Shown: positions 3,064 to 25,752 of the stretch, piece by piece | How positions within the stretch are numbered: the first letter of the stretch is position 1 | Layout: every line of letters starts with the position of its first letter | DNA from: a virus | Reading direction: 5' to 3' (one strand) | Virus record (IMG/VR): IMGVR_UViG_3300034119_000605 | Span: 1-35,943 of that record | DNA length: 35,943 nt | The notes under the pieces: generated by a model | Database searches by the model: none | The model's input: the letters and a program-made list of their open reading frames with translations, nothing else | What the model was told of the DNA's origin: nothing | Position numbers and translations under genes: made by a program

Positions 3064-3853
3064 TGGCTTAGATGTTTCGGAAGGTAGGATTAAAAACGTT
3101 CTTATTGGGTATTACAACCCTATAAGATCAATGCCAAAAGATCAGGTTAAAAATTATCTTTCGATAGCAATTTCAAATGCTGGCAAAGCTTACTCAGGCA
3201 TGAAAGAGGGCGACAAAACAATGCCAGAAATAATCCAGGAATGCGTCCGCTTTACATACGATCAATTTAACTCAATAGGAGTTAATGAGATAATGGACGC
3301 TTTTAAACTGGCAGCCGCTAACAGATTTGAGAATGTAGATATAAAAGCATACGGAGGGGTTTTTACGGTTTCGTTACTGGGCGACGTTCTTTATGCTTAT
3401 TCAAAATATCGAAACAAAATAATTGCCAAATATTTAGAGCTAAAAGATACCGAGCAAAGGGCAGAAAATAAAGAGCGAGAAAAAATCAAAAAGAATAACG
3501 AGGCAAGAGAAAAGATTAAAACCGATATTGAAGCCGCAATTATCTCAATACAGCAAGGTATTTATTTTTGGCAAACGTGGCACGAAGTTCCAGTCCATTA
3601 CGCGGAAATCGCAGTCGGGGCTGGCTGGGTTGAAGTCAGTCCAGAGTTTAAGAAAAAAATCTGGGAGGAAAGCAAAGAGCTCGCTAAAAAAGAACTAATC
3701 AAAACAGCTCAGGACCATAGCAACTTAGTTGAGGCGAGAAAAGCAAAGCAAATTTTAATGCAAAATATCGAAAGTCAAATTATATCTGAGCCAGCAAAAA
3801 GAATTTACGCAAAAAGACTTATTTTTGAGTACATTAAACAGCACGAACTATGA
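2999..3853 (+). CDS. hypothetical replication-region protein
   Basis: A 284-residue protein starting inside the initiator gene in another frame (65-bp overlap). It has no recognised family. Residues about 85-140 are hydrophobic and helical (ECVRFTYDQF, GGVFTVSLLGDVLYAYSKY), and residues about 145-185 are a highly charged Lys/Glu helix, probably coiled coil. The C-terminal third is also helical. By position after an initiator it could be a helicase-loader analogue (as lambda P follows O), but no Walker motif is visible, so this is only positional inference. Confidence 0.75.
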   Translation: MELTLNNSTQTLLAKYSISSFSGLDVSEGRIKNVLIGYYNPIRSMPKDQVKNYLSIAISNAGKAYSGMKEGDKTMPEIIQECVRFTYDQFNSIGVNEIMDAFKLAAANRFENVDIKAYGGVFTVSLLGDVLYAYSKYRNKIIAKYLELKDTEQRAENKEREKIKKNNEAREKIKTDIEAAIISIQQGIYFWQTWHEVPVHYAEIAVGAGWVEVSPEFKKKIWEESKELAKKELIKTAQDHSNLVEARKAKQILMQNIESQIISEPAKRIYAKRLIFEYIKQHEL

Positions 3854-4188
3854 ACAACTACAAAGCGATGAACGCCTACTTACTCGTCACGGCTTTAAAT
3901 CTGACTTTGTTTTCCATTGCGGAGCTCGAGCCTTCAAAGATGAGGCAAGCGCAAAAGATGAGATTTTTGAACCTGCGCAACGCTGCAAAAAACTTTCTGG
4001 AGCAGATGCCGACAAGTAAAGAGGACAAAGAGTTCCTAAACGACCAAAGCTTCGACAGCGTGGGTTTAATCACGGAACTGGTCGCTATGCTTTCTCAGGT
4101 GCATCCAGACCAGCAGGAGTGGATAACAAGCGAGGTCAAAAAGTTAATTTTCCAATCAGTAAACAGACAAAACGGAGCAGTAATATGA
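3850..4188 (+). CDS. hypothetical protein
   Basis: A 112-residue, largely helical protein. The N-terminal 25 residues are hydrophobic (AYLLVTALNLTLFSIAEL) and could be buried helix or a weak membrane segment. The rest is polar (MRQAQKMRFLNLRNAAKNF). Start and stop both overlap the neighbouring genes by 4 bp, so it is tightly coupled in the replication operon. No family was recognised. Confidence 0.75.
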   Translation: MNNYKAMNAYLLVTALNLTLFSIAELEPSKMRQAQKMRFLNLRNAAKNFLEQMPTSKEDKEFLNDQSFDSVGLITELVAMLSQVHPDQQEWITSEVKKLIFQSVNRQNGAVI

Positions 4189-4400
4189 TAGCGAATATTT
4201 ATAACCTTACAGGGCTCACAAACGACCAACTTTATGAGCATAATTTGCACGCTGGCAAGTTTATTAAAGACCTAACGGTCCAGAACCTGCACGATCTTTT
4301 TTTCCTGCTCAGGCTCGAAATAACTGGCGAACCAACGGCAGCAATAACAATAAAATTTTTTACACAAAGAGCAGTCGAGCTCAATATTCAAATTTACTGA
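4185..4400 (+). CDS. hypothetical small protein
   Basis: A 71-residue protein. The frame is open from an ATG at 4119, but the ATG at 4185 overlaps the upstream TGA (ATGA), the junction used repeatedly in this operon, so it is the preferred start. The sequence is mixed helix and strand (NLTGLTNDQLYEHNLHAGKF) with no known domain and no membrane segment. It ends one base before the next ATG. Confidence 0.7.
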   Translation: MIANIYNLTGLTNDQLYEHNLHAGKFIKDLTVQNLHDLFFLLRLEITGEPTAAITIKFFTQRAVELNIQIY

Positions 4401-4401
4401 T

Positions 4402-4863
4402 ATGAAACAAATAATCGGATTTATAATATTAGCAGTCTGTCTTTTCGGCTGCATCCAGACGAAGGAAGCTCCAGAGGTACAGATAAAATTCATTGAGCGG
4501 ATTGTATACCGTGACACCTGCGACAGCGAATTTATCCGCAAAATTGGACAAATAGAGTCCAATAATACAGACAGCGTAATTGAGGCAAATGGTCACGGCT
4601 TCGGGCGCTACCAAATTTATAATGTTTGCGTCAAAGGCTCAGGAATGACAGACCTACTCGGTTATAGTCACGATGACATGTTTAACAAAGAAAAAGCAGA
4701 GCATGTTTTCTGGGCTACAATGGGAATATTTTGTCATACCTTTGCGCAAAAGCACGGACGCTATCCGACATACGAGGAGCTCGCTCGAATGTGGTGCGGA
4801 GGCTCGGAGGGGTATAAATCAAATGCTACATTAAACTACCTAAACAAATTTAAAACACTATGA
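4402..4863 (+). CDS. lysozyme-like (SLT-type) lipoprotein
   Basis: A 153-residue protein with a lipoprotein signal: basic start, hydrophobic helix and lipobox LFGC with Cys17. The mature part resembles lytic transglycosylases: Glu52 in GQIESNNTDSV is the likely catalytic acid, followed by GFGRYQIY (residues 66-73) and the substrate-cleft segment LARMWCGGSEGY (127-138). It should cleave glycan strands of peptidoglycan from the host membrane face. Placement in a replication operon, away from the other lysis genes, is odd. Alternatives to lysis are assistance in DNA entry or superinfection exclusion. The fold call is good; timing and role are inference. Confidence 0.75.
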   Translation: MKQIIGFIILAVCLFGCIQTKEAPEVQIKFIERIVYRDTCDSEFIRKIGQIESNNTDSVIEANGHGFGRYQIYNVCVKGSGMTDLLGYSHDDMFNKEKAEHVFWATMGIFCHTFAQKHGRYPTYEELARMWCGGSEGYKSNATLNYLNKFKTL

Positions 4864-5060
4864 AAGCAATTGTAATTTTGGAAGGCTCAAAGCAGCCTTA
4901 TATCGCAATAGGTCGCCACTTTGGAGGCATAAATCTGGAGGGTGTGCAATACATTTACCATCCAGTCCGTGATGCCTTCATCCGCAAAGATTGGGTTAAA
5001 AAAATGAAGGGCAAAAAGTGGGAGCAATTTTTGGAGGAAGTCAAAGCCAGTGAGCAATGA
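4860..5060 (+). CDS. hypothetical small protein
   Basis: A 66-residue protein. The N-terminal ~45 residues look like a small beta-rich domain (AIVILEGSKQPYIAIG, VQYIYHPVRDAFIRK) and the C-terminus is a basic, then acidic helix (KKMKGKKWEQFLEEVK). It overlaps both neighbours by 4 bp and sits directly before the resolvase gene, which may indicate a DNA-related role. No family was recognised. Confidence 0.7.
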   Translation: MKAIVILEGSKQPYIAIGRHFGGINLEGVQYIYHPVRDAFIRKDWVKKMKGKKWEQFLEEVKASEQ

Positions 5061-5575
5061 TTCTTTACGTCGGGGTTGATCCTGCCTTCAGGGAGAACGG
5101 GTTTTACGTTTGTGTAATAAATGACAATATCGCAGACTTTCAGAAAATGAAAACCTTTATTGACTTTGTCGAATTTATCGATAAGATCGCAGACAATAAC
5201 CTGGAGGCTTTTATTTGTATTGAGAACAGCAATGAAACGAACCATACCTTCATAAGCCCGAAAGTGCGCTCCACTGCTGGCAGGGAAAAAATCAGTCGGG
5301 ACGTGGGCAAAAATCAGGCAGTCTCGCAAATGTCGGTCGATTATGCAAAATATAGGCTCAGTATTGGTGTTTATTCAGTCAGTCCAGCAGATAAGGGGAT
5401 GAAGTGGTCAGACCTTATCACGAAGGCAGAAGCCAGAAATCACGGCTTGGAGCTGCTTAATTACAAAGGTCTGAAATCTGAGCAGGACAAAAGGGACGCT
5501 TTTAAACTGGCATTAAGGGCAAAATTTGAGTTTTTTAAGGCAAAAAGTACGGAAAAAGCACGAAAAAAGACCTAA
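5057..5575 (+). CDS. RuvC-like Holliday junction resolvase
   Basis: A 172-residue RNase H-fold nuclease resembling phage RuvC-like resolvases that cut four-way junctions and branched DNA before packaging. The likely metal ligands are in order: Asp8 in YVGVDPAF, Glu56 in AFICIENSN, and Asp144 and/or Asp147 in EQDKRDAFKLAL. The middle contains the conserved-looking segment GREKISRDVGKNQAVSQM (about 75-92). The C-terminus is basic. It belongs with ERF, SSB and the RadC-like protein. It is the last gene before a new promoter at 5610-5650; no strong terminator separates them. Confidence 0.8.
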   Translation: MILYVGVDPAFRENGFYVCVINDNIADFQKMKTFIDFVEFIDKIADNNLEAFICIENSNETNHTFISPKVRSTAGREKISRDVGKNQAVSQMSVDYAKYRLSIGVYSVSPADKGMKWSDLITKAEARNHGLELLNYKGLKSEQDKRDAFKLALRAKFEFFKAKSTEKARKKT

Positions 5576-13086: not shown

Positions 13087-13843
13087 TATAAGTATTTCAA
13101 CTGGCGGCTCATTTACCTTCCCCTCCGAACTTGCGGACATAACTTTAAAGCAGTATATCGACTTTGCTACCTTTGTAGAGCCTACAATGCCAGCCGAATT
13201 CAGACGCATTGAAGAGGCATCCATTGCGAGGAACAGCGCAGAAACTGAGCAGGAAAAAGAAAAGGCTTGGAAAGAATTTGACGAGGCGGTCCACGCTTGC
13301 GATGACGTTGTGATGTACAGAAAAGTTTATCCGTATTTTGCTCGGGTGGTTGCTCACTTTGCGGTCGGCATATCTGAAGAGGTTATACTCGGTGGTGGTA
13401 AGCATGGCGATGGCATGAACGTCGGACAATTGGAATACCTTTACTCGACGATCATTCGAATAATGAACAATTACGATGAGCCAGAGTACACAAATGTAAT
13501 TTTAGTTAATGATGAGCTTTGGTATTTACCTATGAGATACATGGAAAAAAGTACGCTTATAGAGTATGCAGAGGCATCGCAGTTCGAAGCTAATCTCAAA
13601 GACTTGGATAAGGGGAACTTTGGCGCTTTGGCTAAAATTATGTGCGTTTTGGTCCGCAAAGAGGGCGAGATGTACAGCGACAAACTGCTCAAAAGGGAAG
13701 AGATGTTTTTAAATTGGAATCTCGAAAATTGTTTAAAGGTTGCTTTTTTTTTGCTGAAACGAAGCGAAATATCGCAGCAAAATTTTCTAATTTATACGGC
13801 AGCGCAGGATTTGATGAACGCAAAGCAGGCATCGAAAAATTAA
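13079..13843 (+). CDS. tail assembly chaperone G-like protein (0-frame product)
   Basis: A 254-residue protein. The frame is open from 13031, but ATG 13079 overlaps the upstream stop and gives a natural start (MYNISISTGGSFTFPSELAD). The sequence is alpha/beta with a middle aromatic helical part (VVMYRKVYPYFARVVAHF). It ends soon after a run of nine T, where a -1 shift would enter a second long frame. This layout, a shorter product and a longer frameshifted one, is characteristic of tail assembly chaperones (lambda G and G-T). The function is inferred from the frameshift architecture and its place in the tail operon, not from sequence similarity. Confidence 0.6.
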   Translation: MYNISISTGGSFTFPSELADITLKQYIDFATFVEPTMPAEFRRIEEASIARNSAETEQEKEKAWKEFDEAVHACDDVVMYRKVYPYFARVVAHFAVGISEEVILGGGKHGDGMNVGQLEYLYSTIIRIMNNYDEPEYTNVILVNDELWYLPMRYMEKSTLIEYAEASQFEANLKDLDKGNFGALAKIMCVLVRKEGEMYSDKLLKREEMFLNWNLENCLKVAFFLLKRSEISQQNFLIYTAAQDLMNAKQASKN

Positions 13844-24871: not shown

Positions 24872-25035
24872 GAGATATAATCACGGTAATAGTTTTGGCG
24901 ATCTTGGTTTGGCAATTATTACGCTGCGAAGTAAGGCAGGAATACAAGGCACCTGAGCAACCTTTCAATGGCTCAGACACTTTAAAAATCTTTTTTGTTA
25001 ACGACTCCATTACGGAAATAAAACCCTTGAAATGA
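24868..25035 (+). CDS. small single-TM protein with TTG start
   Basis: A 55-residue protein (first residues LRDIITVIVLAILVWQLLRC). TTG at 24868 overlaps the upstream TGA (TTGA), mirroring the ATGA junctions elsewhere, and no in-frame ATG is well placed. One N-terminal transmembrane helix (about 3-19) is followed by a periplasmic polar tail. Size, topology and location between a secreted SPOR-like protein and lysis genes fit an inner-membrane spanin-like or lysis accessory protein. This is inference. Confidence 0.55.
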   Translation: MRDIITVIVLAILVWQLLRCEVRQEYKAPEQPFNGSDTLKIFFVNDSITEIKPLK

Positions 25036-25238
25036 AACAGACAGCAGTAGAATGGTTGGTTGCGCAAATCATTAAAGAAAAAGGATTGGTTGATTTAGAT
25101 ATACAAGCAGCCCTCGAAATGGAGAAACAACAAATAATAGAAGCTCACGGCTTAATTGCTAAATTCCAAGAGGATGGCAGTCACAAACTAATTTCGGGCG
25201 AAACATATTACAACGAAACTTACAAGCCCTCTGCTTAG
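25032..25238 (+). CDS. conserved phage hypothetical protein
   Basis: A 68-residue protein beginning MKQTAVEWLVAQIIKEKG with a central AALEMEKQQIIEA helix. This N-terminal pattern is familiar from many small phage proteins of unknown function, particularly in marine and Bacteroidetes phages. It overlaps the upstream gene by 4 bp and is the last gene before the long non-coding stretch. Confidence 0.75.
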   Translation: MKQTAVEWLVAQIIKEKGLVDLDIQAALEMEKQQIIEAHGLIAKFQEDGSHKLISGETYYNETYKPSA

Positions 25239-25407
25239 CGCTGAGCATGGACCGAAGATAATACTAATCAGTATTGCAAATCGTATGTTGCCACTGTTAG
25301 CGTTCAGGGGATAATTCAAAAACGCATTAAAATACTTGGTTTGGTAGTTCCAGAAAGGCAGGCCGCTAAACAAAAACTAACCTGACAGCTGGAAAGACAG
25401 CATTTTT
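25239..25407 (+). other. gene-free stretch with hairpins upstream of tRNA-like element
   Basis: No open frame of note. Visible structure: AATACT (25260-25265) with AGTATT (25270-25275), loop of four; GCGTT (25300-25304) with AACGC (25321-25325); TTAGCG (25297-25302) with CGCTAA (25364-25369); and GCTG (25388-25391) with CAGC (25398-25401) followed by five T. CCTGACAG (25381-25388) is complementary to CTGTCAGG (25512-25519) inside the tRNA-like element. It may be one structured transcript with it. Confidence 0.4.
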
Positions 25408-25523
25408 AGTCCTGTGGCGGAAGTAGACGCACTGAGGTCAAAGAATTTTGTACACAACTGAGGTATTGGAGGATATTGACTGTTGAACCAATACAATTAC
25501 AGGTTCGAATCCTGTCAGGACTA
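25408..25523 (+). ncRNA. tRNA-like element, probably decayed or atypical tRNA
   Basis: The 3' half is canonical: T-stem ACAGG/CCTGT (25499-25503, 25511-25515) with loop TTCGAAT, then CAGGACT and discriminator A (25516-25523). The 5' half supplies a perfect 7-bp acceptor strand AGTCCTG (25408-25414), T8-G9, and a Leu-like D-arm GCG-GAAGTAGA-CGC (25417-25430). The D-loop lacks the usual GG. About 68 bases separate the D and T arms, ~30 too many. CTGAG then GTCAAAG (25432-25443) resembles a Leu(CAA) anticodon arm without its 3' strand. TATTG/CAATA (25474-25478, 25489-25493) encloses CTGTTGA, resembling an Asn(GTT) loop. A direct repeat ACTGAGGT (25431, 25457) lies in the excess. Confidence 0.5.
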
Positions 25524-25548
25524 TTTTTTTAACTTTAAAACAAACACC

Positions 25549-25752
25549 ATGAACGCAAGAAAAGAAATACTTGAAAAAATAGAAGAGTTTGAACATTATA
25601 AAATAGAATGTCAAAAAGAACTATCTTGCTGGAATAAACAAGACGATCCAGAATATTATGAAAGACTTAAAATGCATGAGTCATTTTATGACAGCAAAAT
25701 ATCACTTATGGAATGGGTATTAAATTTATTAAAATCTGAAAGCCAACAATGA
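25549..25752 (+). CDS. hypothetical small protein
   Basis: A 67-residue protein. ATG at 25549 is preferred; the frame extends upstream only through the tRNA-like element. The protein is a helical hairpin with charged heptads (EILEKIEEFEHYKIECQKEL, then YYERLKMHESFYDSKI), probably coiled coil. A/T-rich coding. No family was recognised. It overlaps the next gene by 4 bp. Confidence 0.72.
   Translation: MNARKEILEKIEEFEHYKIECQKELSCWNKQDDPEYYERLKMHESFYDSKISLMEWVLNLLKSESQQ

Follow-up and report, generated by a model that had tools for sequence, protein, structure and literature searches.

A tRNA-like element of a viral genome and a putative family of non-decoding phage RNAs built on a tRNA frame with exchangeable payloads

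The IMG/VR virus record IMGVR_UViG_3300034119_000605 was analysed as a single stretch of 35,943 bases (the window), which encodes terminase, portal, tape-measure and endolysin genes and holds, in a gene-free stretch between the open reading frame (ORF) at 25032-25238 and an ATG at 25549, a 116-nt tRNA-like element on the + strand (25408-25523). This element is a genuine tRNA-like structure, and translation is not its job, because there is no decoding loop and members of its family mostly lack an encoded CCA. On balance, we favor the view that it belongs to a large family of non-decoding phage RNAs in which a tRNA chassis carries an exchangeable payload that would act in trans. A constant frame, composed of a 7-bp acceptor stem, T8, a D-arm with A14-A15, T48 and a T-arm, encloses a payload that stands where the anticodon and variable arms would be; the payload is swapped at one genomic place, and yet each given payload is conserved letter for letter between phages. 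Other loci are referred to here by L numbers.

Each part of the frame was found by reading the window element on its + strand. The 5′ strand of the acceptor stem, AGTCCTG (25408-25414), forms 7/7 Watson-Crick pairs with 25516-25522 and is retained in L002, L003, L004 and L259. It is followed by T8, G9 and a Leu-type D-arm, GCG-GAAGTAGA-CGC, whose D-loop has the AA but lacks GG (25415-25430, with the D-arm proper at 25417-25430). The 68-nt payload (25431-25498), of which T48 is the final base, contains the direct repeat ACTGAGG (25431-25437 and 25457-25463) and a predicted hairpin of seven pairs, GTATTGG(18)CCAATAC (25463-25494). The T-arm, ACAGG-TTCGAAT-CCTGT (25499-25515), has a 7-nt loop, and the 3′ strand of the acceptor, CAGGACT, ends with the discriminator A at 25523 and no encoded CCA (25516-25523). 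The initial annotation, made from the sequence alone, had reported the perfect acceptor, the canonical T-arm, the Leu-type D-arm without GG, the direct repeat and a broken anticodon arm, and all of these were borne out; no 5-bp stem with a 7-nt loop is present in the 68-nt middle, and "tRNA with insertion" is a good description of the anatomy. The two partial anticodon loops that it also proposed are unsupported, because the CAA and GTT triplets lie in a CAAA-GAAT-TTTG hairpin and in the loop of GTATTGG(18)CCAATAC.

As the initial annotation had suggested, tRNA finders and covariance models were applied, and neither ARAGORN nor Rfam calls the element. ARAGORN found no tRNA and no transfer-messenger RNA (tmRNA) in the window, and Rfam gave nothing at gathering score, tmRNA included. 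The best Rfam tRNA match at the element reaches 19.2 bits, short of the cut-off of 29, and starts at 25462, so the true 5′ acceptor is not used by it. When matches in the window region were admitted up to E = 10, only the tRNA and FopS models appeared; in ten relatives Rfam returned tRNA and wcaG only, and in seven loci with long payloads it returned one sub-threshold match and no ribozyme or intron. The folding energy of the element does not stand out (z -1.39; 20 of 200 shuffles fold equally well). A detector for the acceptor, T8 and T-arm, on the other hand, found this single site when both strands of the whole window were scanned, versus 0.1 sites per window for its loose form in 40 shuffled windows and none at the strictness of the element. 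No frame was detected in Flavobacterium phage 1/32, a distant relative (terminase 47%).

A 20-mer query from the D-arm region retrieved four viral loci. Three loci from relatives of the window phage, L002, L003 and L004, carry the same 68-nt payload (payload A), which is letter-identical in all four contigs; the only difference between these elements and that of the window is the T-loop, which has 7 nt in the window and 8 nt (TATCRAAT) in the relatives. The element plus its flanks aligns at ~95% among these relatives, and the genes that adjoin it have identities to the window of 75% and 73% in L002, 78%, 76% and 69% in L003, and 77% in L004. The acceptor and T-arm, whose lack of conservation the initial annotation had named as evidence against the element, are thus both conserved, and on this count the element is not refuted. 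L003 also holds a second copy (L003B) in which the same frame encloses a different payload (B), and L259 carries payload B plus a third, payload C; at a single locus, therefore, payloads are exchanged within an unvarying frame. That frame is shared by payloads A, B and C, and payload B is found in both states of the elbow described below, without GG and with TATC in L259 and with GG and TTC in L310. Comparison of L130 with three relatives, all of one payload family, revealed changes on both sides of five acceptor pairs, one D-stem pair and one pair of the payload hairpin; the coliphage copies (L208, L324-L327) are too similar for covariation testing. At the same locus, L316 has a near-canonical tRNA-Leu-like gene (42 to 134 after the motif of RNA1, an upstream RNA described below) that is class-II-like with an 8-nt anticodon loop and is possibly near the ancestral state. 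In L003, positions 240-360 contain a pair of T-arm-like hairpins with a Leu-like D-arm after them, an arrangement resembling a circularly permuted tRNA.

To describe the family, 100 non-redundant elements with an 8-nt T-loop were gathered by T-stem motif queries, of which a few are likely false (e.g., L089); a further 40 matches classed as non-canonical 7-nt include false ones (L130:1163, L259:270), and that set was not used. The elements measure 65 to 322 nt (median 124), and the 322-nt L257 is probably two adjacent frames. Their acceptor stems comprise 81 different sequences; every pair position shows all Watson-Crick types, with G-C predominating at pair 7. T48 is present in 99 of the 100 elements, versus 82 of 203 tRNAs of the same loci; T48 and the A14-A15 of the D-loop together supply the bases required for an A15-U48 pair. 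The elbow occurs in two matched states, a D-loop with GG and a 7-nt TTCRANY loop or a GG-less D-loop and an 8-nt TATCRAAT loop. Among 80 elements with a Leu-type D-arm, 54 lack GG, and the combinations were counted as 49 (no GG, 8 nt), 23 (GG, 7 nt), 3 (GG, 8 nt) and 5 (no GG, 7 nt; Fisher 2.9e-12), where, judged by the anticodon arm, seven of the 23 are regular tRNA-Leu. An encoded CCA was found in 7 of the 100 elements, versus 68 of the 203 tRNAs, and CCA-less elements stand beside tRNAs that do encode it in L208 (9/9), L121 (9/10) and L167 (5/5).

The payloads are mostly unrelated to one another; 137 distinct cores gave six similar pairs only, one of which consists of two true tRNA-Leu. In no case read does the middle restore a decoding arm, and the shortest members have a 20-nt middle with 3-bp stems (L031, whose fold serves as illustration only) or a 4-bp stem with a triloop (L105). 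Some members, including L113, L123 and L163, have long inserts in the D-loop. Nested T-arms were considered as a general rule for payloads and rejected; they occur in 3 of 140 payloads, too few for a rule, where 0.17 would be expected. A whole tRNA (43.7 bits) is nested in the payload of the L072 frame at 2766-2838, and L020 is similar by eye. In a 72.9-kb phage contig, L005, an array of odd tRNA-like RNAs extends over 3600-5230; one of these (3899-4004) has a T-arm hairpin inside its anticodon arm and scores 40 bits as a tRNA despite the insert, and on the - strand at 13540-13602 there is a sub-threshold match to the type II hammerhead ribozyme (33.5 bits, cut-off 37).

The signature of the family is widespread in viral sequence. 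The 16-mer TGGCGGAAGTAGACGC, covering T8, G9 and the D-arm, was found in 52 viral stretches; among 54 matches, counting the window with 53 others, 18 show a perfectly complementary 7-bp acceptor strand no more than 160 nt away. The TATC-type T-arm GCAGGTATCRAATCCTGY was found in at least 120 viral stretches, and versions with C, G or T at the A position (TCTC, TGTC, TTTC) were found in 26 stretches combined, 7 of them framed; within the subset with an ACAGG stem, 21 of 30 TATC matches are framed versus none of 3 TTTC matches. Across the collected loci, a 7-bp acceptor partner followed by T8 accompanies 91 of 132 TATCRAAT T-arms, while shuffled acceptors gave 4, 5 and 7 of 132. In bacterial genomes (257 billion bases), the same T-arm was found in 35 rows only, and by reading, six of these matches are framed (L173, L174, L179, L193, L199 and L205); L179 is a Sphingobacterium prophage, in which the framed site adjoins a gene read as tape-measure. 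Cultured coliphages and cyanophages carry the family as well, mostly unannotated. A 65-nt form is present in the Synechococcus phages S-SKS1 and S-SRM01, where no RNA feature is annotated for that place, and a second query of 33 nt retrieved 106 phage records, mostly Escherichia phages with an exact 22-nt match. In phAPEC8, the element is unannotated and lies between tRNA-Asn and tRNA-Thr; one phAPEC8-like phage, "ukendt", is recorded with E. coli K-12 MG1655 as its host. Some members lie within tRNA arrays, as in L208, while the window itself has no tRNA by ARAGORN. The phAPEC8 array (L208) holds a further unannotated tRNA-like element at 3427-3498, with a CACAA-TTTA-TTGTG hairpin as its anticodon arm. 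No paper on a tRNA-framed family of phage RNAs was found in the literature searched, in which subscription journals are mostly outside coverage.

Taken together, these data suggest how such an RNA might work. The RNA would be excised from the phage transcript in the manner of a pre-tRNA, by host RNase P and by RNase Z or 3′ exonucleases; it would then persist by virtue of its tRNA-like fold, and the payload at the anticodon-arm position would act in trans by binding some protein or RNA. We infer transcription, excision, stability and the action of the payload in trans from sequence, and several points weigh against this interpretation. The transcript, its processing sites and a binding partner are hypothetical, and antisense tests against the phage's own locus and against rRNA yield no trans target for the payload. 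For 129 payloads the longest exact complement in the own locus averaged 9.88, versus 9.79 for shuffled sequences (4 of the 129 exceed all 20 shuffles), and for 130 payloads compared with Sphingobacterium 16S/23S regions the values were 9.04 and 9.08 (1 exceeds); both candidates were rejected. The high identity of the payloads could stem from recent exchange, and a gene segment in L004, distant from the element, is 90.6% identical to the window. In addition, the T-stem of the 8-nt-loop set is biased by the T-stem queries that gathered it. The window element itself breaks the elbow rule, with no GG and a 7-nt loop, as do L003B and three others, while L002, L003A and L004 obey it. Lastly, elements found without either query motif fall into the four elbow combinations as 23, 1, 1 and 1 (p 0.15), and this test is weak because few (2) of them lack GG.

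The main rival, a reading that the initial annotation had also raised, assigns the activity to the frame instead of the payload: the RNA would be a tRNA decoy that occupies a host tRNA-binding enzyme such as a tRNA-cutting defence nuclease. The altered elbow and the missing anticodon would then make the frame uncleavable or unproductive, and the frame is indeed the part common to all members; however, a payload would be superfluous in a pure decoy, which fits poorly with the identity of payload A across four contigs and with the compensatory change in a payload hairpin. Furthermore, no gene for defence or RNA repair was recurrent among the 1358 ORFs surrounding 119 elements. We regard both the decoy and its proposed resistance to cleavage as rather unlikely, though deserving of weight. 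In the same set of ORFs, one protein cluster only is found near eight or more loci (10 loci), and it was read as a single-stranded DNA-binding protein.

A less probable rival is that the structure is punctuation in cis, which directs RNase P and RNase Z cuts of a late polycistronic mRNA between genes and ends in a T-run. The placement of the elements, which in the favored reading also speaks for their transcription together with genes, fits this account, since they lie between co-directional genes: an ORF of at least 80 aa overlaps 23 of the 100 elements versus 79% of random places, and the flanking ORFs are on the same strand as the element in 151 cases and on the opposite strand in 24. The initial annotation had likened the 3′ end to a terminator; a T-run is present in the window (25525-25531, + strand), but it is not scored on the + strand by a terminator scan and is weak at best. 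TTTT lies within 10 nt of the 3′ end in 21 of the 100 members, but also in 21 of 203 tRNAs of the same loci, and 79 of the 100 members have no such run. A cutting site, moreover, needs no conserved payload, and some members stand inside tRNA arrays (L208).

It is very improbable that the element is a working tRNA from which an intron or insert in the anticodon arm is removed by splicing. The near-canonical L316 at the same locus in a relative speaks for it, as does the L005 element that scores 40 bits despite its insert; however, removal of the middle restores no anticodon stem, the short members L031 (a 20-nt middle with 3-bp stems) and L105 (a 4-bp stem with a triloop) likewise have no 5-bp anticodon stem with a 7-nt loop, CCA is missing beside tRNAs that encode it, and no Rfam intron or ribozyme family was found in the seven long-middle loci. 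A decaying tRNA gene, as the initial annotation had considered, or a chance resemblance, is the least credible explanation and is already contradicted: although ARAGORN and Rfam reject the element and its elbow is in a mixed state, the arms are perfect, the payload is identical in four contigs whose adjacent genes differ by 22-31%, strict matches are absent from 40 shuffles, and the frame recurs with compensatory acceptors and D-stems and a co-varying elbow in many phages, with hundreds of other cases.

Among known systems, the nearest kind is the pair of T4 RNAs RNAC and RNAD (species 1 and 2), although the element is filed under neither these nor YrlA. RNAC and RNAD carry the annotation of small stable RNAs and are encoded next to phage tRNAs; the T-arm of RNAC, CCGGG-TTCGAAT-CCCGG, lies 7 nt from its 3′ end. 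Their function is stated as unknown in papers from 2010 and 2022 (PMC3014915, PMC9697503). Unlike the family, the T4 sequences have no TATCRAAT loop and no GGCGGAA D-arm, and there is no clean acceptor at the annotated 5′ end. The bacterial Y RNA YrlA has a tRNA-like domain. It is described as a non-coding tRNA mimic with an added functional part, an example of a tRNA-like non-coding RNA that can be linked to nuclease biology (PMC7790460). YrlA is tied to Ro/Rsr and RNA repair operons, whereas no Rfam Y RNA match was found in the window region up to E = 10, with the presence of a YrlA model in Rfam unchecked. In tmRNA, a tRNA acceptor and T-arm are joined to an insert in place of the anticodon arm, as in the present frame; tmRNA differs in that the frames here span 65 to about 240 nt and have a paired D-arm, and no tmRNA was called by ARAGORN or Rfam in the window, a negative that included no search by hand for a tag reading frame. 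The family shares with phage tRNA-Leu the D-arm GGCGGAA..TAGACGC, the class II neighbourhood and the contacts T8, A14 and A15-T48, but most members have a GG-less D-loop with an 8-nt T-loop, mostly no CCA and no anticodon arm. Engineered tRNA scaffolds for RNA production carry their payload at the anticodon-arm position; these are man-made, and the family would be their natural counterpart.

A broader proposal, which we advance only tentatively, is that these RNAs might constitute a new class of trans-acting phage RNA with its own version of the elbow, in which interchangeable cassettes are loaded onto a constant tRNA chassis, at the anticodon site and in some cases within the D-loop, to supply a store of effectors or guides directed at host functions; T4 RNAC and RNAD and the gene-free "RNA islands" of Bacteroidota prophages would be part of the same biology. 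The family makes testable the old question of what tRNA-like phage RNAs such as RNAC and RNAD do. It is common, is overlooked by tRNA finders and Rfam, and is present in phages that infect common laboratory strains of E. coli. It can be searched for by its signature (TATCRAAT T-loop, GG-less D-loop, T48 and 7-bp acceptor), and it illustrates how cargo RNA can be mounted on a tRNA frame in nature; the coupled change in D-loop and T-loop is also relevant to the construction of the tRNA elbow. Many such RNAs may hide in phage stretches annotated as gene-free.

The region just upstream of the element contains a second conserved, predicted structure, RNA1 (25225-25328, + strand), whose 5′ strand overlaps the stop of the ORF at 25032-25238. 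A 24-mer of RNA1 occurs in 36 stretches of viral sequence; across 28 sequences, both sides are changed in 11 of the 24 consensus pairs, and Rfam gave no match at its cut-offs; from this covariation we take RNA1 to be a new structured RNA. A detectable frame lies near 16 of 37 RNA1 sites (1.5 kb upstream to 2.5 kb downstream). Between RNA1 and the element is a small hairpin, GACAGCTGGAAAGACAGC (25384-25401, + strand), which is also present in L002, L003, L004, L291, L314 and L318 and takes the form GCCTG..CAGGC in the prophage L179. As GACAGC(C)TGGAAAGACAGGC, this hairpin is common to the window lineage and the Sphingobacterium prophage (at 4134 and 5215), with its stem compensated. The same prophage has a 1.3-kb gene-free "RNA island" (4010-5335) with many small RNAs closed by long stems; it contains two frames and 11 long closing stems, whereas 15 shuffles averaged 3.8, with one reaching 11, and parts of the island match other family genomes in differing combinations.
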